Shown here: one piece after another, positions 9,990-28,935 of the stretch
How positions within the stretch are numbered: position 1 is the first letter of the stretch
Layout of the letters: each line of letters starts with the position of its first letter
Source of the DNA: Melioribacter roseus P3M-2
GTDB lineage: Bacteria > Bacteroidota > Ignavibacteria > Ignavibacteriales > Melioribacteraceae
Length of the DNA stretch: 64,000 nt
Direction: 5' to 3'
NCBI RefSeq assembly: GCF_000279145.1
Contig: NC_018178.1
Location: forward strand, 2,923,688 to 2,987,687
Made by a program: the position numbers and the translations under genes
Notes under the pieces: model-generated
The model's database searches: none
What the model was told of the DNA's origin: nothing
What the model saw: the letters and a program-made list of their open reading frames with translations, nothing else

Positions 9990-10703
9990 ATGAAGAACAG
10001 CGTCAGATGCAATAATTGTTCTACAGAAAATCCGTTCTATCTACTTACTTGTGAAAATTGCAAGGCATTCCTTCGAACTAAAGTGCCCAATATCGATTTC
10101 TGGCACACTACGTCAAAGTTATTCGAATCTCCGGTAAAAGCGGCGGAACTTTTAATTCATGCCGACCATAAAAACTTTTTATTGACTGTAATAATTCTGG
10201 CCGCATTAAAAATTTCATTGACGGCGGGAATTCTTTCAAATGTTTTTTCGGGAGGAGAGGGCAGACTTCAAAATATATTCGTCGCTTTAAGCTCGTTGCC
10301 GATTTCATTTATATTATTAATGTTGGCATGGTCGGTTCTAATGACGCTAATCCTGAAAATTACGGGCGTCAAAAGCCGTTTCAAAGACAATCTCGCTATC
10401 TATTCCTACTCGTTTATACCTATTATCTTCACATTAATTTTACTTACGCCGGTCGAATACGCCTTGTTCGGTCAATATTGGTTTTCCTTCAATCCTACCC
10501 CGTTTGCAATCAAATATATTCCGTCTATTGTTCTTTCGATTATTGAAGGGATATTTATAGTTTGGAGTATGTTTCTGGCTATATGCGCCACTTATGCGCA
10601 GTCGCGAAGTCTCTTTTTTTCGATTCTAATCGGCGCTCTGTTTCTAATCGTTACGGTTGGGATTCCCGTATATTTAGCTTATGTATTAAATAATCCAGTA
10701 TAA
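9990..10703 (+). CDS. zinc-ribbon Yip1-like membrane protein
   Basis: 237 residues. The N-terminal zinc ribbon has two Cys-x2-Cys pairs (RCNNCS and TCENCK); about five hydrophobic membrane segments then fill residues 60-237, in the style of Yip1-domain proteins. The role is unknown. It starts 1 bp after the DUF5683 gene stops, so it is probably co-transcribed. Its last 53 bp overlap the end of the convergent ppx/gppA gene; both frames look real. Confidence 0.65.
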   Translation: MKNSVRCNNCSTENPFYLLTCENCKAFLRTKVPNIDFWHTTSKLFESPVKAAELLIHADHKNFLLTVIILAALKISLTAGILSNVFSGGEGRLQNIFVALSSLPISFILLMLAWSVLMTLILKITGVKSRFKDNLAIYSYSFIPIIFTLILLTPVEYALFGQYWFSFNPTPFAIKYIPSIVLSIIEGIFIVWSMFLAICATYAQSRSLFFSILIGALFLIVTVGIPVYLAYVLNNPV

Positions 10704-19129: not shown

Positions 19130-19157
19130 AGTTTACATAATATACATTATGTGTTAT
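19130..19157 (+). repeat. dif-like site at the left element border (attL)
   Basis: 28 bp read as AGTTTACATAA - TATACA - TTATGTGTTAT. The left arm equals the reverse complement of the XerD arm of B. subtilis dif as I remember it (TTATGTAAACT), and CATAATATACATTATG equals the core of E. coli dif in reverse orientation. Bases 19137-19153 are repeated exactly at 28066-28082. Expected to be cut by XerC and XerD. Confidence 0.85.
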
Positions 19158-19168
19158 TACCTTAGCAC
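19157..19168 (+). repeat. left copy of a 12-13 bp inverted repeat next to attL
   Basis: TTACCTTAGCAC directly follows the dif-like site (with the preceding A, 13 bases from 19156). Its exact reverse complement GTGCTAAGGTAA is at 28041-28052, just inside the right site. In the excised circle the two arms would flank the joined attachment site symmetrically. Confidence 0.8.
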
Positions 19169-19348
19169 CGTAACAAATATAATTTGCTTAAATGCTATTG
19201 TCAAGTAAAAAATTAATACTCCGCTATACAAAACAGAATAATTTTAAACTTTCTGCTTTATGTAAATTCCTTAATAGAAAAACCGTTAGGTTTTTCAACT
19301 TTCTTGTACATTAACAATAACAAATAACATACATATATATATAGTAGA
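19169..19348. other. AT-rich non-coding region of the element, possible unwinding region
   Basis: 180 bp without a credible gene. It holds a hairpin GAAAAACC-GTTA-GGTTTTTC (19277-19296), an 11-base match to the XerD arm in opposite orientation with one mismatch (TTATGTAAATT, 19258-19268), and an alternating AT run (ACATACATATATATATA) just before the iterons. Together with the iterons it makes up the 347-bp gap before the lipoprotein gene. Confidence 0.5.
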
Positions 19349-19414
19349 AACGACATTTTTATCGTTACGGGACGACAAAAATATCGTTCCGGAACGATAT
19401 TTTTATCGTTTGCC
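19349..19414 (+). repeat. three tandem 22-bp iterons, each an imperfect palindrome
   Basis: Copies start at 19349, 19371 and 19393. Each contains (A/G)ACGA-N8-TCGTT, a dyad with arms 8 bp apart, then a 4-base linker (ACGG, CCGG, TGCC). Copies 2 and 3 together also give a perfect 28-bp palindrome (19377-19404). Exact 22-bp phasing puts the dyads on one face of the helix. Read with the DnaA boxes downstream this looks like an iteron-type replication origin; a repressor operator array is the alternative. Confidence 0.75.
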
Positions 19415-19438
19415 TTTTAGTTATCCACATTTTATATT
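19410..19438 (+). promoter_or_regulatory. candidate promoter of the lipoprotein gene
   Basis: TTGCCT (19410-19415), 17-bp spacer, TATATT (19433-19438). The first DnaA box lies in the spacer and the second near the expected start of transcription; the third iteron abuts the -35. Binding of Rep or DnaA would be expected to affect this promoter. Confidence 0.4.
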
Positions 19439-19451
19439 GCGCTTGTCCACA
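19421..19451 (+). promoter_or_regulatory. two DnaA boxes 22 bp apart
   Basis: TTATCCACA at 19421-19429 is the consensus DnaA box; TTGTCCACA at 19443-19451 differs at one base. Same orientation, seven bases after the iteron array. Supports host DnaA taking part in replication of the excised element. Confidence 0.65.
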
Positions 19452-19471
19452 AATTAATTAGGGGTTTAATT

Positions 19472-19849
19472 ATGAAAGCACATTACAAACTTATAGCATC
19501 AACTTTAATTTTATCTTTTTTACTTTCCGGGTGCGCTCTTTTATTTCAAGGTATTAATCAAAAGGTATCGCTTGATTCCTCGCCGGACACTGCCGAAGTA
19601 TGGGTAAACGGCGTAAAAATGGGTTTAACTCCGTGCAAAATTGAATTGAAAAGGAACTCCGAATATACTATCGAATTTAAAAAGGATGGTTATAATATCA
19701 AAAGTTATCGTGTTACGAATAGCGTCGGTGCCGGATGGATAGTCCTTGATATTTTAGGGGGGTTAATTCCTGTTATTATTGACGCCTCAACTGGGGCTTG
19801 GTATTCACTCGACCAGGATAATATTAACGTTATGTTAGAAAAGCAATAA
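19472..19849 (+). CDS. PEGA-domain lipoprotein carried by the element
   Basis: 125 residues. Signal peptide with lipobox LLSGC (Cys21); a PEGA-like beta domain (SLDSSPDTAEVWVNGVKMG, then LTPCKIELKRN); and a hydrophobic segment GWIVLDILGGLIPVII near residue 90. AGGGG precedes the ATG. It is the only plus-strand gene of the element and sits alone next to the origin, with its own promoter and terminator. A surface lipoprotein in this position would suit a lysogeny-expressed gene such as superinfection exclusion; that is inference. Confidence 0.75.
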   Translation: MKAHYKLIASTLILSFLLSGCALLFQGINQKVSLDSSPDTAEVWVNGVKMGLTPCKIELKRNSEYTIEFKKDGYNIKSYRVTNSVGAGWIVLDILGGLIPVIIDASTGAWYSLDQDNINVMLEKQ

Positions 19850-19855
19850 AAAATG

Positions 19856-19885
19856 AAGCCGGTTTTTTACCGGCTTTATTTTTTT
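19856..19885. terminator. bidirectional terminator between convergent element genes
   Basis: Stem AAGCCGGT / ACCGGCTT with a T5 loop, followed by TATTTTTTT on the plus strand; A-runs on the other side serve the minus strand. It separates the lipoprotein from the end of the late operon; its 3' arm touches the stop codon at 19876. Confidence 0.85.
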
Positions 19886-20364
19886 ATCAAAAAATATAAA
19901 CCAACTCCACCGAGTACCAAGTAAGGCAAAACGTCTAAACCGGAGTTTGTTCTTCCCGGAATTGAACTCGCCTCATTATAAATATTTTGTGGATTATAAT
20001 AAGGAATTGCGCTATCAGATTCCGGGATATTAGATTTTCCGGACGTTTGTTTTTGTGCCTTAATAGTTTGCAAATAATTTTTTATGTTATCTTGCCAGCC
20101 CGCCGGGACGTAAATATAGCTTTCAATTTTTTTCGTGTCAACATCGCTCCAGCTTAAGCCATACTGTTTAATCCATTCGTTTATTTGGTTAATTCTATTA
20201 GTCAGGTCTCCGGGAATAAACTTATCCCCTTGCCAATATCCTTTATCTTCTGAACTGAAAAGTCCACCTATTAAATCGCCAACAACCGGAATTAATCCGG
20301 CGACACTTGTAAGAAAATCAGAATCGTTTTTAAATCCGCTAAAACCAATTGTAACGCCGTTCAT
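19876..20364 (-). CDS. tail-anchored element protein, last gene of the late operon
   Basis: 162 residues, family not recognised. A Gly-rich hydrophobic stretch near the N terminus (TSVAGLIPVVGDLIGGLF, about 19-36) and a C-terminal membrane segment (VLPYLVLGGVGLYFLIKK). The middle is polar. AAGGAGATAAGGCT before the ATG is the best Shine-Dalgarno sequence in the element. A membrane-anchored virion or lysis protein is possible. Confidence 0.65.
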   Translation of the reverse strand: MNGVTIGFSGFKNDSDFLTSVAGLIPVVGDLIGGLFSSEDKGYWQGDKFIPGDLTNRINQINEWIKQYGLSWSDVDTKKIESYIYVPAGWQDNIKNYLQTIKAQKQTSGKSNIPESDSAIPYYNPQNIYNEASSIPGRTNSGLDVLPYLVLGGVGLYFLIKK

Positions 20365-20446
20365 AGCCTTATCTCCTTTTAGCCTATAATATGATATGCC
20401 TTTATTAAAATTCGTGGCTTATACGCCATTTATGGAAGCCATTTTG

Positions 20447-20620
20447 TTATTTCTTCAATCGCTTTAAGGCTTTTCTGTATTCTGCAAGCCTTTCCCGTCT
20501 TAATTTTTTTAATTTACTTTCAAGGTCTTTTATTCGCTTTGTCTTGCTGTGTACTTTTCTATCTTTCCAAGCCTTTGCCAGAATATTAGTTTTTTTCCGA
20601 GTATTATTTTTTTTCCTCAT
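20447..20620 (-). CDS. small, very basic protein (57 aa)
   Basis: Found by reading the minus strand. ATG at 20620, stop TAA at 20447, 57 residues, about 26 of them Lys or Arg (MRKKNNTRKKTNILAKAW at the start, RRERLAEYRKALKRLKK at the end). Predicted helical. The start lies inside the preceding 54-aa gene. Such composition suits nucleic-acid binding, for instance genome condensation in a virion; the function is inferred from composition only. Confidence 0.55.
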   Translation of the reverse strand: MRKKNNTRKKTNILAKAWKDRKVHSKTKRIKDLESKLKKLRRERLAEYRKALKRLKK

Positions 20621-20768
20621 TTTTCATATATCCTTTTTTTTTGAGTAAAGCCGTTCCCAGCGTGAAAATAAACAGTATTTCAGAGTCCGGAATTTTTTCC
20701 CAGTCTATTTTTTTTATTTCTTTAGCAAGTATTTCCGGGACTTTCACATATTCAAATTTATTATTCAT
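20604..20768 (-). CDS. small hypothetical protein (54 aa)
   Basis: ATG at 20768, TAA at 20604; begins MNNKFEYVKVPEILAKEI and has a weak hydrophobic patch EILFIFTLGTALL (about 30-42). It overlaps the upstream gene by 8 bp and the downstream basic-protein gene by 17 bp, the same packing as the other element genes. No family recognised. Confidence 0.55.
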   Translation of the reverse strand: MNNKFEYVKVPEILAKEIKKIDWEKIPDSEILFIFTLGTALLKKKGYMKNEEKK

Positions 20769-21255
20769 TTTTGTTTTTTATTAATAATGGTAAAATCATA
20801 TTTAATATATCCGTTCCGGAACTTTCAGAATCTTCACTTCTAAGTTTTTCAATTTCGTTTTCAAGCTGTTTAATTCTTTCTTGATAAAACTGTATTTGTA
20901 TTTTAAACGCTTCGTCTTTCATTGCTATAATAGATTGTATATCAAAATTGTTATTGCTTTTATTCGCTAATAACGAGTCGATTTTCTCAAATAATAAATC
21001 GATTTTAGAATCCTCGGGAGTTTTATTCTTTGTTTCTGTAACTAAGCCATTTATGTTTTGAACGATATTTCTTTGTTCTCCGATTTTTTTTATAGACAAA
21101 CTATAACGCCCGGAACCGAATTTATTGCCTAAATATTTTTGAAGATACGTTTTATTTTTTCCGTTTACTTGCTCGCCATCTATAATTTCCAATTGCTGTT
21201 TATTCTTATTAACGACGATATATTCGATATTTTCATATATATCATTTTTTTTCAT
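20761..21255 (-). CDS. element protein with C-terminal coiled coil
   Basis: 164 residues. The N-terminal half is mixed alpha/beta (IEYIVVNKNKQQLEIIDGEQ); residues 85-140 form a strong coiled coil (FYQERIKQLENEIEKLRSE), followed by a short hydrophobic end (ILNMILPLLIK). Family not recognised. Located just downstream of the lysozyme gene in the late operon. Confidence 0.6.
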   Translation of the reverse strand: MKKNDIYENIEYIVVNKNKQQLEIIDGEQVNGKNKTYLQKYLGNKFGSGRYSLSIKKIGEQRNIVQNINGLVTETKNKTPEDSKIDLLFEKIDSLLANKSNNNFDIQSIIAMKDEAFKIQIQFYQERIKQLENEIEKLRSEDSESSGTDILNMILPLLIKNKNE

Positions 21256-21261
21256 TTGCTA

Positions 21262-21768
21262 TTACCCCCAAAAAGAATAAAGTAATTGCCGCAATCTCCA
21301 AAAGTCTGTAATTTTTTTTTCCATCAACCAACTAAATTTTGCAATGTAATCGCTTATATGTGTCCCAAACGAGTCCGCCGGGTCATATACAAAATTAGTT
21401 TCAATCGCTTTTTTCAATCCGTTAAATCCGCCTAAATGTGCGCCGGCAATTAAACCAAACAAATTTATTCTTGTTGTTAAATTATTACTCTTTCCTGCAA
21501 CTTTCGAACCGATATATTTATCCAGCCCGGAACTTATTATTTTATTCTCTAAGTCTTTTACGTGCGCCTCGAAAAATTTTTCTTGCATTTCCGGCGTAAA
21601 TTCAGAACGGGTTAAATGTTTTAATCCGAGTATTGATTCAATATCTTTACGCCTTGCCTCTCCGAATTGATATTTCCCCCAATAATTTCCATAGTCTTTA
21701 TTATAATTCCCACCGGACTCGCTAAATCCTAATGCTTCTTTAAATTTATAATAATCGCTTGTTGTCAT
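21262..21768 (-). CDS. lytic transglycosylase/lysozyme-like virion enzyme
   Basis: 168 residues. The start FKEALGFSESGGNYN carries the catalytic-type Glu (residue 17) in an E-S-G-G-N-Y context, followed by YWGKYQFGEARRKD, the G-x-Y-Q-F-G pattern of SLT/lysozyme-fold enzymes. A further hydrophobic patch LFGLIAGAHLGGFNG belongs to the same fold. It would cut peptidoglycan during entry or release. The start ATG overlaps the stop of the upstream gene by one base. Confidence 0.75.
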   Translation of the reverse strand: MTTSDYYKFKEALGFSESGGNYNKDYGNYWGKYQFGEARRKDIESILGLKHLTRSEFTPEMQEKFFEAHVKDLENKIISSGLDKYIGSKVAGKSNNLTTRINLFGLIAGAHLGGFNGLKKAIETNFVYDPADSFGTHISDYIAKFSWLMEKKITDFWRLRQLLYSFWG

Positions 21769-22253
21769 TATATTAATTCCGCTGTTATTTTAATTACACA
21801 TTGTACCGGCGAAAATAAAGTACTTTGATATACGTTTTCGTAGTGGTCTGCTTTAATCATAATATTGAAACTTTCAATTTTCGCAGTTTCAAAGTCGGTT
21901 TCAATATTGTCAAGAACATTATAATAGTTTTTCGTTGTGTCTTTATTGAAATATATATTTTTATTAACCTCTACTTGAAAATATTGATTGCTATTTCCAA
22001 GATTCCAGCCGGCTGAAGTTTTTGGAATTAAACAGTCTTTTTTTACTACTTTAAAATTTGTATAGGTAACCGGCGACAGCGAAGAAACTTCTGCGCCGGT
22101 TACAATTATATCACTCTGCGCATAAAAAGATTTTTCGATTTTTTTTATTAATAGTTTCTTTCCCCTAATACTTTCGAAAGGCTCAACCATAGTTAATTTA
22201 TTTCCGTCGGTCAAGCCTTTGAAAGTTATCAATATAAAATTATCAAGGTGCAT
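21768..22253 (-). CDS. beta-rich element protein, possible vertex or spike
   Basis: 161 residues, no signal or membrane segment, rich in alternating hydrophobic/polar stretches (FILITFKGL, DIIVTGAEVS, CVIKITAEL) typical of beta-sandwich proteins. No family recognised. It lies between the single-jelly-roll protein and the lysozyme, adjacent to the former with no gap, a common position for minor capsid genes in jelly-roll phages. Confidence 0.6.
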   Translation of the reverse strand: MHLDNFILITFKGLTDGNKLTMVEPFESIRGKKLLIKKIEKSFYAQSDIIVTGAEVSSLSPVTYTNFKVVKKDCLIPKTSAGWNLGNSNQYFQVEVNKNIYFNKDTTKNYYNVLDNIETDFETAKIESFNIMIKADHYENVYQSTLFSPVQCVIKITAELI

Positions 22254-22589
22254 TTATACCACCACTTTTTGACCAATAAAATCAACCTCAAAATAATTAA
22301 CTGTCGCACCGGACTTGTTCGTAATTTCAACCGTTATCTGTGTATTCGGGTCAATAATATATGGAACTGTTAACCTTAATCCGTTATTCCCCTTGCCAAT
22401 GTTAGCACTATTAAACGCCGTAGTGCTATATAAAGTGCCGTCTGCTTTTCTTATTTTAACAAGAACGTTGTTGACTTCGGATGAACGGATCTCGTGTAAC
22501 TCGAACGGCTCACTACCGATATTTACGTTTTGACTTGTAGTCGTGCCGTCTGCAATCGAACCATCGAAAACTACATTGTAAATGAACAT
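22254..22589 (-). CDS. putative single-jelly-roll minor capsid (penton-like) protein
   Basis: 111 residues. Residues 75-109 (VPYIIDPNTQITVEIT, then FEVDFIGQKV) match the end of each half of the neighbouring 360-aa protein (LPYPVVIPSQSRVKASIY ... KLTAMFKGTLQRV and LQFPIIINSTSNVVVKVE ... KILRVELTG). A one-barrel partner beside a two-barrel capsid gene is the usual arrangement for penton proteins. The assignment is inference from this pattern. Confidence 0.6.
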   Translation of the reverse strand: MFIYNVVFDGSIADGTTTSQNVNIGSEPFELHEIRSSEVNNVLVKIRKADGTLYSTTAFNSANIGKGNNGLRLTVPYIIDPNTQITVEITNKSGATVNYFEVDFIGQKVVV

Positions 22590-22615
22590 ATTTTCACCTT
22601 TATTTTTTTTAGTTA

Positions 22616-23698
22616 TTAAACTCTTTGCAATGTACCTTTAAACATAGCGGTTAATTTTGAACCGGTCGTAATAAGAGAATTAAGCGACGGAACGTAAATA
22701 CTTGCTTTAACTCTACTTTGAGACGGGATTACAACCGGATACGGTAAAGTAAGACCATACGAAGAATAATACCTCGATTTCTTATTATAACTGTTAGCAT
22801 AATATAAATACAATGTGAATAAATCGCCGTTTCCGAACTCTATCATTTCAGTATCGTCAACGGTTACCTTAAGATAAGAACCTCTTAACGCCGACAATAT
22901 TGTATGGTCAAGCATCGAACCAGCCGCCGCTTGAGTACCAGCAAGGAAAAACTCTATATTTTCAATCGAAAAGGTTTCTTTATCGCTTAACGGAAATGTT
23001 TTCGAAAATAAACGGACATCTTTGTTTTGTGTGCTAAATAAATCATAAGTAACTCCTTGCGTAGCGTCAAAATCGACAGTATCATACATAGTAAAGGAAA
23101 GTCGTTCGATCAATTTGTCGCCTTGTGGATTAAAAACAAACGGTGTTAATTTGTCGAACTTGACGCCCGTTAATTCTACACGTAGAATTTTAGTATCGAA
23201 ATTCGTTGCAATGCTCGACGTGGTTTCTACTTTTACAACTACGTTAGACGTGGAATTAATAATAATTGGAAATTGCAGTTTTCTTTTACGCTTAATTTGC
23301 GTTACATAGTCCCAGTTTGAAGTAACTGCACCCTCATCCTGATTATTCAAAATGTTAAAAGTTAGAATTTCGGTAAAGGGTATTTTTGCCTTGACTCTGT
23401 CGTCAATACTTATTAACAAATAAGTTTGTTGAAACAAGTCATAATAGTTTGTCTGCCAAACTGATTCCTCAAGATAAACGCCTATTTCGTTAATGAATAC
23501 AACTTCATTCTGCGAAATTGGAAAGACACGGTTTCTTTTATCAACGCTCAACTCTGAATTTACGAACGCATTATACTGCGTAGTCCCGTTTTTAATAGTT
23601 ATTTCGTCGTATAATGTATAAGGTTTAATTCGGACTTTTTCATTTGTAGGATAGCCGAATTTTTTTAATTGTTGAATTACTAAATCGTAATTAGTCAT
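22616..23698 (-). CDS. putative double-jelly-roll major capsid protein
   Basis: 360 residues, beta-rich, no signal peptide. Two halves repeat one pattern: VFPISQNEVVFINEIGVYL (58-76) with TFPLSDKETFSIENIEFFL (234-252); YLLISIDD (93-100) with YLKVTVDD (275-282); LQFPIIINSTSNVVVKVE (141-158) with LPYPVVIPSQSRVKASIY (318-335); KILRVELTG (170-178) with KLTAMFKG (348-355). The offset is about 177 residues throughout. Tandem beta-barrels of this size are the mark of capsid proteins of tailless dsDNA phages and of ssDNA phage FLiP. It is the longest late gene apart from the 367-aa protein. A duplicated non-capsid beta protein is the alternative. Confidence 0.7.
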   Translation of the reverse strand: MTNYDLVIQQLKKFGYPTNEKVRIKPYTLYDEITIKNGTTQYNAFVNSELSVDKRNRVFPISQNEVVFINEIGVYLEESVWQTNYYDLFQQTYLLISIDDRVKAKIPFTEILTFNILNNQDEGAVTSNWDYVTQIKRKRKLQFPIIINSTSNVVVKVETTSSIATNFDTKILRVELTGVKFDKLTPFVFNPQGDKLIERLSFTMYDTVDFDATQGVTYDLFSTQNKDVRLFSKTFPLSDKETFSIENIEFFLAGTQAAAGSMLDHTILSALRGSYLKVTVDDTEMIEFGNGDLFTLYLYYANSYNKKSRYYSSYGLTLPYPVVIPSQSRVKASIYVPSLNSLITTGSKLTAMFKGTLQRV

Positions 23699-23715
23699 TT
23701 TTTTAGTCTCCTTTT

Positions 23716-24078
23716 TTACGAATAAAACCTTTTATAATTTGTAACAAGTTTCGGAACGGACACATAATCTTTTAATCCTGCATTCAATTGCATTGTTGTA
23801 TTATTAGCCGGCAAAACATTATTGGACTGCAACATCGGTTTAACTAAATCATCAACTATATTTGCAACGGCAACGGCAACGCCGACATTTGCAATTGCCG
23901 GTTTTTTGAGTAGCTGCGATAATAGCAAAGCAACCGCCGCTCCCGAAATTTGCCCGCTCATTCCAGTTTGAAAAGGTATATTTAATTTACTAAGAATCAA
24001 CGGCGCATTATTTACCGCCAAAGCACCGAGAACCGCATCGGTTAATTGTTTTGTGTCGAACATTTTTTTTCTTTTCAT
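23716..24078 (-). CDS. small hydrophobic element protein
   Basis: 120 residues; two or three hydrophobic stretches (ISGAAVALLLSQLL and ANVGVAVAVANIV) separated by short polar parts and a polar C terminus. It may be a membrane protein of the virion or the host envelope. An internal ATG six codons in is a possible alternative start. It lies directly upstream of the putative capsid gene. Confidence 0.6.
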   Translation of the reverse strand: MKRKKMFDTKQLTDAVLGALAVNNAPLILSKLNIPFQTGMSGQISGAAVALLLSQLLKKPAIANVGVAVAVANIVDDLVKPMLQSNNVLPANNTTMQLNAGLKDYVSVPKLVTNYKRFYS

Positions 24079-24083
24079 TTTTT

Positions 24084-24233
24084 TTATTCCTTATTTTTTT
24101 TATTAGTTATTACTTCTTTTAACCACTTGATTTCTGTTTCAACCTTTGATAATCTGTTAGTTATTCCGATATACGTTGATAATAATCCTGCAATAAAAAC
24201 CAATAACTGAATAATGATTTCATTTGCTTGCAT
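24084..24233 (-). CDS. small membrane protein (49 aa), holin/XhlA-like layout
   Basis: ATG at 24233, TAA at 24084. One membrane segment (IIIQLLVFIAGLLSTYIGI, about 6-24), then a charged helix (RLSKVETEIKWLKEVI). This membrane-plus-coiled-coil layout resembles XhlA-type accessory holins. It fills the gap between two other membrane protein genes and is followed 5 bp later by the 120-aa gene. Confidence 0.55.
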   Translation of the reverse strand: MQANEIIIQLLVFIAGLLSTYIGITNRLSKVETEIKWLKEVITNKKNKE

Positions 24234-24247
24234 CTTTTTTCCATCTC

Positions 24248-24463
24248 TTATTTGAATTTTACGAATTCTTTGGGGTCTTTAAGTGCAACCTTACCGGTAT
24301 ATATTAAGCTCCATATCATTGATAATAGAACGGCAACGGCACCGGAAATAATTTCCTCAATACTATTTTGCGACACGCCCAAAGCAACGAACCAAGTCCC
24401 CGCAATCTTCATTAGCCATTGTACGATTTTAGTAATTAGCATTTTTTTTATTGCATCAAACAT
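24248..24463 (-). CDS. holin-like small membrane protein
   Basis: 71 residues from the ATG at 24463, chosen because GGAGAG lies 8 bases upstream; a TTG at 24592 would add 43 residues and overlap the upstream gene by 14 bp. Two membrane segments: ITKIVQWLMKIAGTWFVALG and ISGAVAVLLSMIWSLIYTG. Size and topology fit class II holins; no family match can be claimed. Confidence 0.6.
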   Translation of the reverse strand: MFDAIKKMLITKIVQWLMKIAGTWFVALGVSQNSIEEIISGAVAVLLSMIWSLIYTGKVALKDPKEFVKFK

Positions 24464-24578
24464 TTTTTTCTCTCCATTTGTTTTTGTTTCATAATAAAGA
24501 ACTTTTATCCGGTCAATTATATTTAATCTGAATTTAAGCTCTGTTTTATCCGGCACATTAACCGGTTTTAATATTTTC

Positions 24579-24968
24579 TTAATCCTTAACAATTTTATAA
24601 ACCATAAAAAGAATTAATAAAGGAATTACTTTATCTACGTTTGACGTTATTTGACTAATAGTCCTTTTAACGCCAGCACCTATATTTGAGAACAAATATT
24701 CTAAGTCTGATTTTACAACTTGTTTCTCGTTTAACGGTTTCCCGTAATTCGCTAAAAAATAACTAAATAAAAGCTCATAATTATCTAAATAAGCCGGCTC
24801 CGGCTTTAAGCGCCGATATTTGTAATCAGCCAAATAAAAGTCTTTCAAAGTTTCATACGGAATCGGCAAATCAAAATTTTTCAGAACCGGATAATTTGTC
24901 TTGAACCATTGCAGCCCGGCATCTCCATATTTGGCAATAAATTCTACTTCGTTTTTTGCGTAATTCAT
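24579..24968 (-). CDS. tail-anchored element protein (129 aa)
   Basis: 129 residues: a soluble Tyr/Phe-rich domain and a C-terminal membrane segment (VIPLLILFMVYKIVKD). It overlaps the stop of the 367-aa gene by 4 bp (ATGA). Family not recognised. The recurring C-terminal anchors in this operon suggest insertion into a virion membrane. Confidence 0.6.
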   Translation of the reverse strand: MNYAKNEVEFIAKYGDAGLQWFKTNYPVLKNFDLPIPYETLKDFYLADYKYRRLKPEPAYLDNYELLFSYFLANYGKPLNEKQVVKSDLEYLFSNIGAGVKRTISQITSNVDKVIPLLILFMVYKIVKD

Positions 24969-26068
24969 TTTAACAATTTCCTAAGTATCATAAAGCCCGC
25001 TAAACCGCCCAAGCCGTATAAAATATATTGCCTCAGATGATACGGATCTGAATATATCTCTATCGGATAACCAAAGACCGATATTACATAGGGGTCTAAT
25101 AAAAGATAATTATTAAGGCTTTTCGTTACTTCGTCAATATCTCCATTAATGAAATATGTATAATTATTTTTTATCCAGTCTAAAACTTCATTTTTAATTG
25201 TACTTGTTTCCGATAATTCAGACAAATATTTTTCTGCAGCCGGTAGTAAATCAACAGGAAAACCTAAATTGTTTAACGTCCTTTCGAGTCCACGGGGATT
25301 TAATAACCGCCTTAAAAATTGCACCGTGCCCTTGCTTACCAATATTTTCCCGGTCAAAACATTTTCAACGCTAATATTATTCGTACCGGGTTTAATATAT
25401 ACCATCGGCGAATTTTTAACCGACGTTTGTTTTACCGTCGTTTCAATTGGCTTTATATTCGTATCAGGTATATTATTTATCGGCTCCGGATTTATATCTT
25501 TTATTTCGCTAATTATATCATTATCCGGTAAATCAAAACCAATAGAGACTTCATCAACATTAATTTTATTTGCTTCAGTTTCCGGTATTTCCTTGTATTC
25601 TCGGACATATACGCCCGTATCGCTTATACTCTTTAATTCTTCTGAAACCTCTATCGGGTCAGGCAATTCGGTTTCAGTAATTTTTTTAATAACTTGCATT
25701 GTTTCGGCTTCAATAGGGTCATTGTAATATATATCTGTCTCAAAATTATTTGCCGGGAACTTATTAACTAAAAAAGAATAAACGTAATTTGCGTTGTTTC
25801 CGTATTTCGCCATTAATCTCAAATAATCATTTTCGTAAAATTGCCCGGATACATACGAGCCGCTAATTTCATTAATAGACTTCGCAATATCTTGCAACCT
25901 TACCGAATCCATTATTCCAAACATTAATCTGATTTCGTTCATTAGATCGATTAATCGCTCCGCCGAACTTTTAGAACGCAAATATTTTTGAACATTTTCC
26001 CAGTCGATTTTTTTGTAATCAAATAAATTTTCTGCGTTGTCTCTTAACGTGTGCAATTTTAGAATCAT
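24965..26068 (-). CDS. tail-anchored element protein (367 aa)
   Basis: 367 residues. Helical N-terminal part (1-120); a Pro/Thr/Ile/Asn-rich acidic linker (about 140-235, NPEPINNIPDTNIKPIETT); a second folded part; and a C-terminal membrane segment (YILYGLGGLAGFMILRKLLK). Family not recognised. It overlaps both neighbours by 4 bp. Length, linker and anchor would fit a spike or membrane-bound virion protein. Confidence 0.6.
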   Translation of the reverse strand: MILKLHTLRDNAENLFDYKKIDWENVQKYLRSKSSAERLIDLMNEIRLMFGIMDSVRLQDIAKSINEISGSYVSGQFYENDYLRLMAKYGNNANYVYSFLVNKFPANNFETDIYYNDPIEAETMQVIKKITETELPDPIEVSEELKSISDTGVYVREYKEIPETEANKINVDEVSIGFDLPDNDIISEIKDINPEPINNIPDTNIKPIETTVKQTSVKNSPMVYIKPGTNNISVENVLTGKILVSKGTVQFLRRLLNPRGLERTLNNLGFPVDLLPAAEKYLSELSETSTIKNEVLDWIKNNYTYFINGDIDEVTKSLNNYLLLDPYVISVFGYPIEIYSDPYHLRQYILYGLGGLAGFMILRKLLK

Positions 26069-26523
26069 ATTACCAAAGCCCTATTTTTGAAAATATTATC
26101 ATCTAAGTAATTGAATTTTTTATTTGTCCCGTCGATAAAATAACCGTCCGCATAAACCAAAATATGAGAATATTCGTTTTCCGTTCCTGCGATTAAATAA
26201 AACGCCGGAATATTCAATACTGTTAAAACAGATTTAATAAACAGAGCGAAATCGTCGCAATCTCCGAACTTAATATCAATCATTAACTTTGGACTTGTTA
26301 AACTTTCGTCAAATAAATCATCTTGATAAATGAAGTTATTCCTTACATATTCCCAAATTTTTTTATACAATTCTTTCCGGTCTTTAATATTGCCGAACGT
26401 TTCAAAAACAAACTTCCTGAAGTAAGGATTCCGGGACGCTTCATATTCCATCAACCGCATTGTTTTTAAAGTCTCACTTAAAAAATCCTTATCCCTTATT
26501 TCTTTAATGTGTTCCCGGAGCAT
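26065..26523 (-). CDS. transglutaminase-like cysteine protease-fold protein
   Basis: 152 residues from the ATG at 26523 (a TTG two codons earlier is possible). Transglutaminase-like core: YVRNNFIYQDD, then KFGDCDDFALFIKSVL with Cys89, YSHILVY with His120 and YFIDGTN with Asp131, an intact Cys-His-Asp triad. Proteins of this superfamily act as peptidases, amidases or cross-linkers. It is the first gene of the late operon, directly after the promoter at 26547-26575. A role in virion maturation or peptidoglycan attack is inference. Confidence 0.75.
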   Translation of the reverse strand: MLREHIKEIRDKDFLSETLKTMRLMEYEASRNPYFRKFVFETFGNIKDRKELYKKIWEYVRNNFIYQDDLFDESLTSPKLMIDIKFGDCDDFALFIKSVLTVLNIPAFYLIAGTENEYSHILVYADGYFIDGTNKKFNYLDDNIFKNRALVI

Positions 26524-26546
26524 ATTCAATCATTTTTTTTGTTTAT

Positions 26547-26575
26547 AATATATTTTAGTCTAAATGCTTTGTAAA
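26547..26575 (-). promoter_or_regulatory. candidate late-operon promoter
   Basis: On the minus strand TTTACA (26575-26570), 17-bp spacer, TATATT (26552-26547), 24 bp before the transglutaminase-like start. It is the only good sigma-70-like match in the gap after the terminator at 26590-26614. Confidence 0.5.
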
Positions 26576-26589
26576 GTCTCATTAAATCA

Positions 26590-26614
26590 CAAAAAAAAAG
26601 CCGGCGAACCGGCT
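26590..26614 (-). terminator. terminator after the regulatory genes
   Basis: Minus strand AGCCGG-TTCG-CCGGCT followed by a run of nine T. A stable TTCG loop. It ends the regulatory/replication transcript (26613-28009) and insulates the late operon. Confidence 0.85.
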
Positions 26615-26828
26615 ATTCAAAGTGATTTTTAATCGCTTCTTTAATAGCTTTTTTCATATCCTCATTTAAATGCTTTTCATATTCTTTAATATTTTCGAGT
26701 GCAATATCAACTATATGATTTAATAAATAGTTTGCCGTGCCTTGAATACTCGTTTCCAAAGCTCCCGATATAAAACGTATTTTTTCTGTCAAATAAGGAT
26801 TCAATCTAATCATTGTTTGATTTTCCAT
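26613..26828 (-). CDS. ribbon-helix-helix-like protein
   Basis: 71 residues. MIRLNPYLTEKIRFISGALE then SIQGTANYLLNHIVDIALE gives the strand-helix-helix pattern of Arc/MetJ-type DNA-binding proteins (about 6-45), followed by a charged helix. The start overlaps the upstream gene by 23 bp; an internal ATG at 26813 would reduce this. Likely a regulator or copy-number protein of the element. Confidence 0.6.
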   Translation of the reverse strand: MENQTMIRLNPYLTEKIRFISGALETSIQGTANYLLNHIVDIALENIKEYEKHLNEDMKKAIKEAIKNHFE

Positions 26829-27102
26829 AAAGCCACCTCTTTATTTTGTATAAAAAACTTCTCAAATAATATTTTACTTTACTCCATTTACTTTCTTTAA
26901 ATTTTTTTTCCGGACTGCAAAAATCTTGCGGTAATTTGGGAGTATAGCCTTTTAGTAAAAAATGTTTTTCAATCGCTCTATCCAAAGCGACCGAAAAATT
27001 TTTTCTGTGTCTGTGAATTAATTTTGTCGATACTCCAATTTTTTTAGCAATTGCGTAATTTGAATAACCTTGTTTGGTTACTTTGTTAATTGCTGTTTTC
27101 AT
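26806..27102 (-). CDS. helix-turn-helix protein of the element
   Basis: 98 residues. N-terminal HTH: GYSNYAIAKKIGVSTKLIHR (about 12-31). The rest is basic (YYLRSFLYKIKRWLYGKS). It overlaps the upstream gene by 4 bp. Candidate repressor or replication accessory; no family recognised. Confidence 0.6.
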   Translation of the reverse strand: MKTAINKVTKQGYSNYAIAKKIGVSTKLIHRHRKNFSVALDRAIEKHFLLKGYTPKLPQDFCSPEKKFKESKWSKVKYYLRSFLYKIKRWLYGKSNND

Positions 27103-27596
27103 ATTGTTTCCTCGTAGTCTAATATTGAAGTTACAATTTCAAAAGGTATATCGAATTTTTTAAGCCATACCTTTGGGTATAAAGGTCTTCCTGCTTTTGT
27201 AATTTTTTTTATGAAAATTTTTTGCCCGTCTTTGCGATAAAAGATCTTTGTTTTTTGCGGATATTTAGCTTCAAAATATTCTTTAAGAGAAATTAAATTC
27301 TTATCTGAAATAATATATTCAACGTTTGAATCATAAGTTTTCACCGGCGCATCATTAGGTAATTTTTTAAGGTGTACATCATTATATTTGAAACGCCCTT
27401 TTTCGTCAAAACAGCTTAAAAGATAACCAATTGGATTTTTTAGTCCGTTGCCTTTTTGTTTTGCTCGGCGATTCATTAATTCGGTATATATTAAGCCTTT
27501 TGTCAGCTCATTAACCGAAACGCCGGCAACTTCTAAAATTTCATATACGGAATAATCTTGAAAAACTTCAGAATCTTTTAAGTAAGACTTAATCAA
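27099..27596 (-). CDS. putative replication/regulatory protein
   Basis: 165 residues. YEILEVAGVSVNELTKGLIY followed by NGLKNPIGYLLSCF resembles the C-terminal part of winged-helix plasmid and phage replication proteins, where NP-x-G-Y-L is frequent. The C terminus is Lys-rich. It overlaps the first gene of the operon by 4 bp; the two may act together or derive from one two-domain Rep. Function is inferred. Confidence 0.5.
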   Translation of the reverse strand: MIKSYLKDSEVFQDYSVYEILEVAGVSVNELTKGLIYTELMNRRAKQKGNGLKNPIGYLLSCFDEKGRFKYNDVHLKKLPNDAPVKTYDSNVEYIISDKNLISLKEYFEAKYPQKTKIFYRKDGQKIFIKKITKAGRPLYPKVWLKKFDIPFEIVTSILDYEETI

Positions 27597-28009
27597 CTCT
27601 TTTTCTTCCCAACTATACCGGGAATTTTGTTTTTCAATTTGTTTTTTATCTCCGGGTTTTTAATACCAATTGAATCCGGTAAAGTGTCTTTGAAATGAAA
27701 GATTACTTGGTCTTCTTGGTTTAATCCTTTTTTCAGGAAGTAAATTGTAACGTATTTTTGTACCGCCGGATTTGATTGCATTTTGCGCAAAGTCCTGCGC
27801 AAATGGTCTCTGTGTACATTTCTATGCGCCGCAAATTTGGACGCTGTTAAACTTTCTGCAATCCTTTTTTGCTCGCCTTGACTTGCTCCCATCATTTTCA
27901 TTCTAAAAGTTTGCGCCAAAGCGATAATTATTTTTTCTTCGTCTGTTAATTCGGGGTCTAAAAAGACATTTGAATTGATTAATATGGGGAGATATGATGC
28001 GGAATCCAT
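27593..28009 (-). CDS. winged-helix protein, candidate replication initiator
   Basis: 138 residues from the ATG at 28009 (a GTG two codons upstream is possible). DPELTDEEKIIIALAQTFR followed by ESLTASKFAAHRNVHRDHLR and RTLRKMQSNPAVQKYVTIYF is the wHTH pattern seen at the N terminus of phage and plasmid replication proteins. It is the first gene inside the right border. If a Rep, the iterons at 19349 are its likely target; they lie just across the junction in the circular form. Confidence 0.55.
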   Translation of the reverse strand: MDSASYLPILINSNVFLDPELTDEEKIIIALAQTFRMKMMGASQGEQKRIAESLTASKFAAHRNVHRDHLRRTLRKMQSNPAVQKYVTIYFLKKGLNQEDQVIFHFKDTLPDSIGIKNPEIKNKLKNKIPGIVGKKKS

Positions 28010-28010
28010 A

Positions 28011-28045
28011 AGCACGCCCGTAATTTTGTTTGTTTTGGGCGTGCT
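28011..28045 (-). promoter_or_regulatory. inverted repeat in the leader of the first element gene
   Basis: AGCACGCCC (28011-28019) and GGGCGTGCT (28037-28045), 9-bp perfect arms with a 17-base loop, ending one base before the start codon. It could be an operator or an RNA hairpin that limits initiation. The outer arm shares GTGCT with the border inverted repeat. Confidence 0.5.
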
Positions 28046-28052
28046 AAGGTAA
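28041..28052 (-). repeat. right copy of the 12-13 bp border inverted repeat
   Basis: GTGCTAAGGTAA (13 bases with the following T), exact reverse complement of 19157-19168. It lies six bases inside the right dif-like site. Confidence 0.8.
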
Positions 28053-28058
28053 TATTTA

Positions 28059-28086
28059 CTTGAAAATAATATACATTATGTGCTTA
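28059..28086 (+). repeat. dif-like site at the right element border (attR)
   Basis: 28 bp read as CTTGAAAATAA - TATACA - TTATGTGCTTA. The centre and inner arms equal the left site; the element-side arm is the poorer dif match. Joining the two outer arms gives AGTTTACATAA-TATACA-TTATGTGCTTA as the predicted empty host dif. The last three bases are the stop codon of hbd. Confidence 0.85.
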
Positions 28087-28935
28087 TTTGTATTTGTAAA
28101 ATCCTTCGCCTGATTTGCGTCCTAATTTGCCGGCTGAAACCATCTTTTTTAATAACGGACAAGGTCTATATTTCGAATCGTTATAACCTTCATATAAAAC
28201 TTCCATTATTGAAAGACATACGTCCAAACCGATAAAATCTGCTAGTTCAAGCGGTCCCATCGGATGATTCATGCCTAATTTCATTATCGAATCGATACTT
28301 TCCGCAGCAGCCACTCCTTCATAAAACGCAAAAATAGCTTCGTTAATCATTGGTATAAGTACGCGATTGCTAATAAAACCCGGATAATCATTGACTTCTA
28401 CCGGAATCTTGCCGAGCTTTTTAGCCAGATCAATTACTTTACCGGTTGTCTCGTCCGAAGTTTCGTATCCTCTTACAACCTCAACTAGTTTCATAACCGG
28501 TACCGGATTCATAAAATGCATTCCGATAAAATTAGCGGCGCGCTCTTTAGGGGCCAGCGCAGTTATCGAAATTGAAGACGTATTGGAAGCTATTATTGCT
28601 TCTTGTTTCAGAATTTTAGTTAACTGATTGTAAATATTCGTCTTAACTTCATATTTTTCAACCACTGCTTCAACTACAATATCCGTATCCGGACTGATCT
28701 TATCCAAAGTATCGATAATTTCAATTCGTTTCAACGCTTCATTTTTACCATTTTCATCGATTATATTTTTTTTAATCTGTCTGTCCATATTTTTCGAAAT
28801 AATGTCGAGAGCTTTTTCCAGTATGGCTTTGTCAATATCGCATAATTGGACTTTGTATCCGTTTAATGACAGCACATGGGCTATTCCGGAACCCATAGTT
28901 CCGGCTCCGACAACGGCGGTAATTTTAAAAGGCAT
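28084..28935 (-). CDS. hbd: 3-hydroxybutyryl-CoA dehydrogenase
   Basis: 283 residues. N-terminal Rossmann motif VVGAGTMGSGIAHVLSLNG; catalytic His in FIGMHFMNPVP; C-terminal domain with NHPMGPLELADFIGLD. It reduces or oxidises 3-hydroxyacyl-CoA with NAD(P)H, in butyrate-type or PHB metabolism or in beta-oxidation. The stop codon lies within the right dif-like site, so insertion did not change the protein. Confidence 0.92.
   Translation of the reverse strand: MPFKITAVVGAGTMGSGIAHVLSLNGYKVQLCDIDKAILEKALDIISKNMDRQIKKNIIDENGKNEALKRIEIIDTLDKISPDTDIVVEAVVEKYEVKTNIYNQLTKILKQEAIIASNTSSISITALAPKERAANFIGMHFMNPVPVMKLVEVVRGYETSDETTGKVIDLAKKLGKIPVEVNDYPGFISNRVLIPMINEAIFAFYEGVAAAESIDSIMKLGMNHPMGPLELADFIGLDVCLSIMEVLYEGYNDSKYRPCPLLKKMVSAGKLGRKSGEGFYKYK

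Follow-up and report, generated by a model that had tools for sequence, protein, structure and literature searches.

The 64,000-nucleotide window analysed here comes from the genome of Melioribacter roseus P3M-2 (contig NC_018178.1, positions 2,923,688 to 2,987,687), a cultured, moderately heat-loving type strain with a closed genome of 3,300,414 bp, which was described in 2013 (PMC3534657) and is placed by the NCBI taxonomy in the phylum Ignavibacteriota. Inside the window lies an integrated element, bounded by two sites of the type dif, where chromosome copies are parted from each other, that carries the gene of a candidate double-jelly-roll (DJR) major capsid protein beside that of a smaller single-barrel protein, and that is probably the provirus of a small tailless virus. 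The initial annotation of the window had proposed a tailless virus from these two genes, and both open reading frames (ORFs) it named are present at their coordinates; the element ends, the dif sites and a split replication-type gene are additions to it. The features on which the argument turns are listed below (aa, amino acids; pLDDT, predicted local distance difference test; L088, the locus of a related element).

19147..28069, integrated element (putative provirus), 8,929 bp core to core
19131..19158, left dif-type site, core TATACA at 19141-19146, 15-mer AATATACATTATGTG
28060..28087, right dif-type site, core TATACA at 28070-28075, second copy of AATATACATTATGTG
22616..23698, minus strand, candidate DJR major capsid protein, 360 aa; internal duplication, model and fold matches; L088 homologue at E 9.4e-49
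22254..22589, minus strand, single-barrel protein, candidate penton, 111 aa; AlphaFold2 pLDDT 75.6, eight strands; L088 homologue at E 1.1e-8

Insertion at dif

The whole 3,300,414-bp genome contains exactly two copies of the 15-mer, in the positions that flank the element, and none of the reversed pattern; when two mismatches are allowed, nine further places in the genome are the next-best sites. The reconstructed site resembles E. coli dif. A genome of the same genus (G393, locus L037) has the empty site, with both host flanks joined at a single dif. Around the insertion site host ORFs switch from the plus to the minus strand and the GC skew passes, with exceptions, from slightly positive to negative, both as expected near the chromosome terminus. 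No tyrosine recombinase is encoded within 19147-28069 and three are encoded by the host genome; dif ends in an element lacking a recombinase of its own are the pattern of elements that exploit the host XerC/XerD (integrative mobile elements exploiting Xer, IMEX), suggesting that XerC/XerD act on this element also.

The 15-base core was found in 50 of the 164 genomes of the order Ignavibacteriales. Homologues of the flanking host genes (E < 1e-10) are kept in 45 of 51 regions at the core, from 49 other genomes, and element homologues occur in only one genome among these 51 regions, G481; a weak element match in L044 (E 0.032) was dropped. The regions L054, L076, L081, L082, L083 and L087, where these host genes are missing, probably do not represent dif; in L054, L081, L082, L083 and L087 the core lies in another, repeat-looking context (TATAATATACATTATGAGAAATC or close to it). 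Two of the wide gaps beside dif, in L063 and L043, contain ordinary-looking genes, and L051 has, near 10002-10031 (G476:C23:96688-96719), two inverted dif cores two bases apart.

The inner ends of the M. roseus element also bear a 14-bp inverted repeat (28041-28054 and 19155-19168), longer than the 12 bp reached at most by 981 random 45-base pairs, which would flank the attachment site (attP) in a circular form and could fold into a hairpin. A hairpin of the CTX-phage type as a feature of the group was rejected, the 14-bp repeat being absent from the L088 element.

Internal duplication of the capsid protein

Aligned by hhalign as halves of a two-row profile (the window capsid protein and its L089 homologue), the 360-aa protein matches itself with a probability of 94.0% and a score of 50.7 (46.7 when the master row is exchanged). 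The repeat at a constant offset of about 177 residues that the initial annotation had reported is thus real, and its pairs 58/234, 93/275, 141/318 and 170/348 agree with the alignment to within one residue. Column-shuffled controls of the profile reached at most 18.4 (n=60), 27.5 (n=100) and 19.7 (n=40), and reversed halves scored 13.2 and 10.7. From the single capsid sequence the score is a modest 21.2, against a maximum of 15.9 in 20 shuffles.

Other DJR capsid proteins behave differently at similar depth and divergence: PM2 paired with GXT1010, NO16 or PG21 gives half-versus-half scores of 20.5, 23.2 and 18.0, a little over the highest of the 40 shuffles made for each pair (15.7, 18.4 and 16.1). 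The halves in the PM2 family are far less alike than those of M. roseus (18.0-23.2 against 50.7). PRD1 with GC1 scores 16.1, inside its shuffle range (up to 23.6), PM2 from one sequence 16.4 against a shuffle maximum of 14.0, a slight excess, and the halves of the FLiP and STIV capsid proteins, from one sequence each, do not exceed their own shuffles, FLiP differing in this from M. roseus. In the single-sequence and cross-family tests the real score was obtained by scanning the cut point, whereas one fixed cut point served for the shuffles; this slightly favours the real score. Judged by these scores, the sequence symmetry of the M. roseus capsid protein is by far the strongest among the five DJR families tested, and the halves of PM2 may retain a slight symmetry.

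Predicted fold of the capsid protein

An AlphaFold2 model built from two sequences (pLDDT 54.8, predicted template-modelling score (pTM) 0.42) has the same strand order in both halves, with strands starting at 22/198, 41/216, 65/242, 92/275, 101/283, 134/310, 153/330 and 170/347 (half 1/half 2), that is, two eight-strand sets offset by about 177 residues in a model of low confidence. At this level of confidence the 360-aa protein has the two tandem jelly rolls by which DJR capsid proteins (Bamfordvirae) are recognised. Each modelled barrel also contains a helix, at 83-90 and 261-272, before its E-F hairpin.

Foldseek returned 63 matches among solved structures at E <= 0.001, from which the best 50 were tallied. 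The capsid proteins of SGIV, PBCV-1 and STIV match at a probability of 1.00 (E 4.7e-7, 5.2e-7 and 2.5e-6, respectively); DJR capsid or scaffold proteins (SGIV, PBCV-1, STIV, vaccinia D13) make up 17 of these best 50, and other capsids 4. The best rows given by VIA-align, in which differences of up to 1 Z count as ties and a Z under 8 may reflect a common arrangement alone, cover single barrels at Z 7-10: a poxvirus D13-type structure (9ikc; Z 9.7, 141 aligned, 4.5 Å, second barrel), SPV1 (6oj0; Z 9.0, 146 aligned, 4.4 Å, first barrel) and FLiP (5oac; Z 7.0, 117 aligned, 4.4 Å, second barrel), with PR772 (6q5u; Z 7.8, 256 aligned, 11.5 Å) superposing on both. Among 86 matches at E <= 0.001 in BFVD, viral major capsid proteins rank high, the first 11 rows including capsid proteins of a Pithovirus, a Satyrvirus and the Gluconobacter phage GC1. 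As these searches rest on a low-confidence model, a family missing from them may still be related. In the structural comparison that had been proposed as a check on the capsid assignment, two matching eight-strand sets and DJR capsids among the matches stand against the low confidence of the model, TM-scores of about 0.2-0.3 and birnavirus VP2 at rank 1.

Sequence searches gave no further relatives outside the second element described below. Neither capsid homologue has a Pfam family even at E 10, the two-row profile matched nothing in IMG/VR, and tblastn of the protein against phage records found no match. One row of the PDB search with this profile (E 1.6) is a chance match, as is a hit in G111 (E 0.00325; 78 residues within a 1,166-codon open frame), which came from a search with 2 of 395 genomes positive, the window's own genome counted, and which was dropped.

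The neighbouring predicted single-barrel protein

The 111-aa protein is modelled as an eight-stranded β-sandwich (pLDDT 75.6, pTM 0.69). The idea that it carries two of the capsid patterns failed: its profile scores only 13.6 and 17.6 against the two capsid halves (probability 0.3% and 1.4%), at background level, giving no sequence kinship. Foldseek matches of the model are mixed jelly-roll-like proteins, mostly birnavirus VP2; VIA-align places PHM on top (Z 10.2, 104 aligned, 2.8 Å), with a bacterial enterotoxin domain and nucleoplasmin among the further matches. The best PDB profile match of the 111-aa pair (E 0.013) is an unrelated fusion glycoprotein and was set aside. From its predicted fold and gene position we infer a penton role. 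Of the proposed pairing of a two-barrel capsid protein with a one-barrel penton, the duplication, the fold matches and the predicted single barrel stand, and the sequence relationship of the penton is not supported.

A related element in a second genus

A related element of 12,003 bp lies at the dif of G481 (metagenome-assembled genome WY4.bin45, JAKAKD010000045.1), from the same family and another genus. By phmmer, 13 of the 18 window ORFs have matches in it, among them the capsid protein (E 9.4e-49; 37% identity), the lysozyme-like protein (1.2e-63) and the transglutaminase-like protein (1.6e-40), and the PEGA, 57-aa, 161-aa, 129-aa and 98-aa ORFs have none. Gene order is colinear between the elements except for a relocated 162-aa gene. 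The G481 element (L088:6665-18673) is inverted relative to dif, so that its attP is flipped with respect to gene order.

The group is rare among the genomes searched: out of 391 genomes of the class, two gave a match to the capsid profile and two to the replication-type protein, and out of 164 genomes of the order two matched the lysozyme-like profile, in every case M. roseus and G481. Lysozyme matches in L003 and L004, which have only the lysozyme gene in common with the element, were not counted as relatives.

Gene content of the element

The remaining features are as follows; only the PEGA lipoprotein gene, among 18 ORFs, lies on the plus strand.

19372..19409, near-perfect palindrome of 38 bp, possible origin or operator; opposite-strand self match 95%, intergenic beside the PEGA gene
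19472..19849, plus strand, PEGA-domain lipoprotein, 125 aa, cargo-like; PF08308 at E 1.4e-7, phrog_6823 at E 2.9e-12
19876..20364, minus strand, 162 aa, two hydrophobic segments; L088 homologue at E 1.9e-17
20447..20620, minus strand, very basic protein, 57 aa, net charge +21, possibly DNA-binding
20604..20768, minus strand, conserved protein, 54 aa; L088 homologue at E 1.2e-13
20761..21255, minus strand, conserved protein, 164 aa; L088 homologue at E 5.8e-25
21262..21768, minus strand, lysozyme-like protein, 168 aa; phrog_26675 endolysin at E 3.9e-6, 60% identity to the L089 copy
21768..22253, minus strand, candidate spike or vertex protein by its position, 161 aa; L089 positional counterpart at 23% identity
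23716..24078, minus strand, candidate membrane protein with a hydrophobic segment, 120 aa, directly upstream of the capsid gene; 44% identity in L088
24248..24592, minus strand, holin-like membrane protein, 114 aa; PF23987 at E 6.6e-4 (below cut-off), L088 homologue at E 1.7e-9
24579..24968, minus strand, 129 aa, C-terminal hydrophobic segment; positional counterpart in L088
24965..26068, minus strand, 367 aa; L088 homologue at E 4.5e-37, a 129-aa L088 gene matching part of it
26065..26529, minus strand, transglutaminase-like protein, 154 aa; PF04473 at E 4.6e-5 (over cut-off), 50% identity in L088
26613..26828, minus strand, conserved protein, 71 aa; L088 homologue at E 3.7e-11
26806..27102, minus strand, helix-turn-helix-like protein, 98 aa, possible regulator; PF13936 at E 2.4e-4 (below cut-off)
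27099..27596, minus strand, replication-type protein, C-terminal portion, 165 aa; alignment to roughly residues 162-315 of a 315-aa L088 protein, E 3.4e-15
27593..28015, minus strand, replication-type protein, N-terminal portion, 140 aa; alignment to roughly residues 28-156 of the same L088 protein, E 3.4e-26

The transglutaminase-like protein has Cys91, His122 and Asp133 conserved in both elements. The PEGA gene may be mobile cargo: at 19590-19849 it has DNA relatives in another family of the order (G449:C26:452-711 and G259:C27:6049-6209, 70% and 72%).

In agreement with the initial annotation, which had noted the absence of tail and terminase genes, Pfam and PHROGs scans of 16 of the 18 ORFs, together with a motif scan, recognised no packaging ATPase, terminase, tail gene or integrase; a single Walker-A-like string, in the frame of the lysozyme gene, was judged a chance match, as were PHROGs rows for a tail fibre (E 0.43) and a small terminase (E 0.11 and 0.2). 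The same scans of 16 ORFs gave no match to ParB-like or PD-(D/E)XK nucleases, diverged forms of which could escape them. The replication-type protein has no credible match in Pfam, PHROGs, NCBIfam, phages, plasmids, PDB or IMG/VR, and the HUH (rolling-circle) pattern was not found in stop-to-stop frames of at least 50 codons. Rfam gave nothing at gathering score and PADLOC no match for five element proteins. Promoter-like sites are near their shuffled number (49 against 39.7, sd 6.0), and there are 11 terminator-like sites against 6.2 shuffled (sd 2.5). A DNA search of 164 genomes at E <= 0.01 gave matches in 113, nearly all short and low-scoring; no spacer-like near-perfect match, which would have indicated targeting by CRISPR, was seen among the matches listed.

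Comparison with known systems

DJR proviruses at dif are already known from Flavobacterium and Vibrio; new here are the lineage, the host phylum, the likeness between the barrels and a host in culture. Parts of PMC9719478 describe PhiCjT23, with a genome of 7,642 nt, and 57 putative Flavobacterium prophages of 6,021-8,407 bp between two dif sites with XerC/XerD motifs, and parts of PMC11630473 a few tailless Vibrio prophages inserted at dif. Compared by description only, the PhiCjT23 prophages likewise have a DJR capsid protein, two flanking dif sites and a replication gene near one end. The M. roseus and G481 elements are larger (8.93 and 12.0 kb, against 6.0-8.4 kb), the host phylum is different, and whereas HHpred recognises a rolling-circle initiator in PhiCjT23, whose spike includes a small β-barrel penton domain of a non-canonical type, the M. 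roseus replication-type protein matches no family and a separate 111-aa sandwich is the penton candidate.

FLiP (Finnlakeviridae, MF361639) has a circular genome of similar size, 9,174 bases, in which, as in M. roseus, the gene of a small protein immediately precedes that of the capsid protein and the structural genes are followed by one for a putative lytic enzyme, and according to portions of PMC5894146 and PMC8812541 a packaging ATPase is absent from FLiP and from the Odin group. Unlike in the FLiP group, no M13-like rolling-circle initiator is recognised in the M. roseus element and its capsid protein has no sequence match to FLiP P8 (hhalign, two-row profile). A tblastn search with P8 found FLiP records only, and the best probability between 23 proteins or pairs from both elements and 16 FLiP proteins, compared by profile, was 3.1%. 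The Odin group, also compared by description, has 7-11-kb genomes, no packaging ATPase and one provirus-like contig (PMC5894146); as in the M. roseus element, the DJR gene is preceded by a small conserved one, a single-jelly-roll protein is predicted and no ATPase is recognised. The ParB-like and PD-(D/E)XK nucleases conserved in the Odin group were not recognised in the 16 M. roseus ORFs scanned. PM2 (Corticoviridae, NC_000867) resembles the element in its genome of about 10 kb and its DJR capsid protein. Its gene IX, annotated as a terminase large subunit, has no counterpart recognised in M. roseus, and neither has the packaging ATPase that Corticoviridae and Tectiviridae encode near the DJR gene.

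Interpretation and alternatives

The best explanation of the region is that a small tailless icosahedral DJR virus which uses the host XerC/XerD is integrated here as a provirus that may be damaged, to which we give a probability of roughly 85%. This reading, and with it the tailless icosahedral virus first proposed, is supported by the duplication, the fold matches, the predicted single-barrel neighbour, the lysozyme-like gene and the lack of a credible terminase or tail match in the 16 of 18 ORFs scanned, together with the exact dif insertion, the empty site in G393 and the largely colinear G481 element. Several observations weigh against it. Confidence in the capsid model is low, TM-scores to solved DJR capsid proteins are only about 0.2-0.3, and two-barrel superpositions have root-mean-square deviations near 10-12 Å; a Z below 8 may be common arrangement. 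The modelled helix stands elsewhere than in parts of PMC8812541, in which DJR capsid proteins and DUF2961 have a helix after F and F', so that modelling error or a real difference is possible. Birnavirus VP2 accounts for 19 of the best 50 Foldseek matches, including rank 1 (probability 0.33-0.98, TM 0.10-0.19), cellular proteins account for another 10 (GH172/DUF2961, PHM, PNGase F and BcsB being among the non-DJR matches), and the BFVD rows also contain tail fibre proteins and RNA-virus polyproteins, with unrelated proteins lower down. Searches with the single capsid sequence (Pfam, PHROGs, PDB, IMG/VR, INPHARED, GTDB contigs) found no match, and the replication-type gene is split over two frames here (27099-28015), where L088 has one gene for 315 aa.

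This split gene bears on whether the M. roseus copy is active. A defective (cryptic) provirus, unable to replicate because its replication-type gene is broken, overlaps with the reading above and has a substantial chance of being correct, somewhat short of even: one L088 protein corresponds to two M. roseus ORFs in different frames. The TTG start of the second ORF overlaps the end of the first, however, which would allow coupled translation of two subunits, the other ORFs common to L088 remain open, and an assembly error in the 2013 genome may be responsible. Three readings are possible: the gene is broken, it is split and its two parts are translated in a coupled manner, or the genome is misassembled at this point.

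That the 360-aa protein is instead a cellular-type DJR protein, a relative of DUF2961/GH172, PNGase F or PHM on a non-viral integrative element, we consider very unlikely. GH172/DUF2961 structures (8ah3, 4kq7, 8ic8), PNGase F and PHM do occur among its fold matches, PHM heads the VIA-align rows of the 111-aa model, and DUF2961/GH172 proteins, as described in parts of PMC8812541, have the two-barrel fold in common with it. Since neither capsid homologue has a Pfam match at E 10, DUF2961 is not recognised in either; the lysozyme-like, holin-like and single-barrel genes form a viral context, and dif elements of 8.9 and 12.0 kb occur in two genera. We give equally little credence to a capsid-bearing parasite or satellite dependent on a helper virus. 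The small genome and the lack of a recognised packaging ATPase and of a recombinase would suit one, but the element has capsid, penton-like, lysis-like and replication-type genes of its own, and a genome of about that size (9,174 bases) with no packaging ATPase is also found in FLiP, which has been isolated as a phage (PMC5894146).

If the tailless DJR provirus is accepted, it would work much as the PhiCjT23 prophages of Flavobacterium do: a circular viral genome with a dif-like attP would be inserted and excised by host XerC and XerD, the 98-aa helix-turn-helix-like regulator would silence late genes, and upon induction the replication-type protein would start replication. The 360-aa protein would form trimers, with two barrels per monomer, as pseudo-hexagonal capsomers, the 111-aa protein would fill the five-fold vertices, and, judging by the small hydrophobic proteins, there may be an internal membrane. 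Entry of the genome into the capsid would need no virus-coded packaging ATPase, and the holin-like and lysozyme-like proteins would release progeny. The lack of a packaging ATPase and the use of dif would fit single-stranded DNA phages such as PhiCjT23, but no HUH initiator was recognised here; the genome may be single- or double-stranded DNA.

Significance

A whole virus kingdom, with members that infect bacteria, archaea or eukaryotes, is defined by DJR capsid proteins. How these proteins arose is discussed in parts of PMC8812541: a single barrel may have been duplicated, a two-barrel protein may have been recruited from cells, or duplications may have happened independently. The recognisably alike barrels of the M. 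roseus protein offer material on this question that the PM2 and PRD1 families do not at matched depth. The barrels could be alike in sequence because a single jelly roll was duplicated separately and more recently, within this lineage; the DJR capsid would then have arisen more than once, and the group would be a new family or order of viruses of Ignavibacteriota that keeps an early ATPase-less state, a scenario that we regard as rather unlikely.

The expectation of a phylum with no described example agrees with the literature: no paper was found in open-licence full texts that combines Ignavibacteri with a double jelly-roll or a tailless virus, an absence that is weak evidence; among open-licence titles, again weak evidence, none pairing Melioribacter with a prophage points to the dif element; and the examined portions of the genome paper (PMC3534657) mention no prophage. 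The finding adds a host phylum to those of DJR proviruses, in a cultured type strain whose closed genome allows bench tests, and dif-integrated DJR proviruses lacking a recognised ATPase now reach beyond Flavobacterium.

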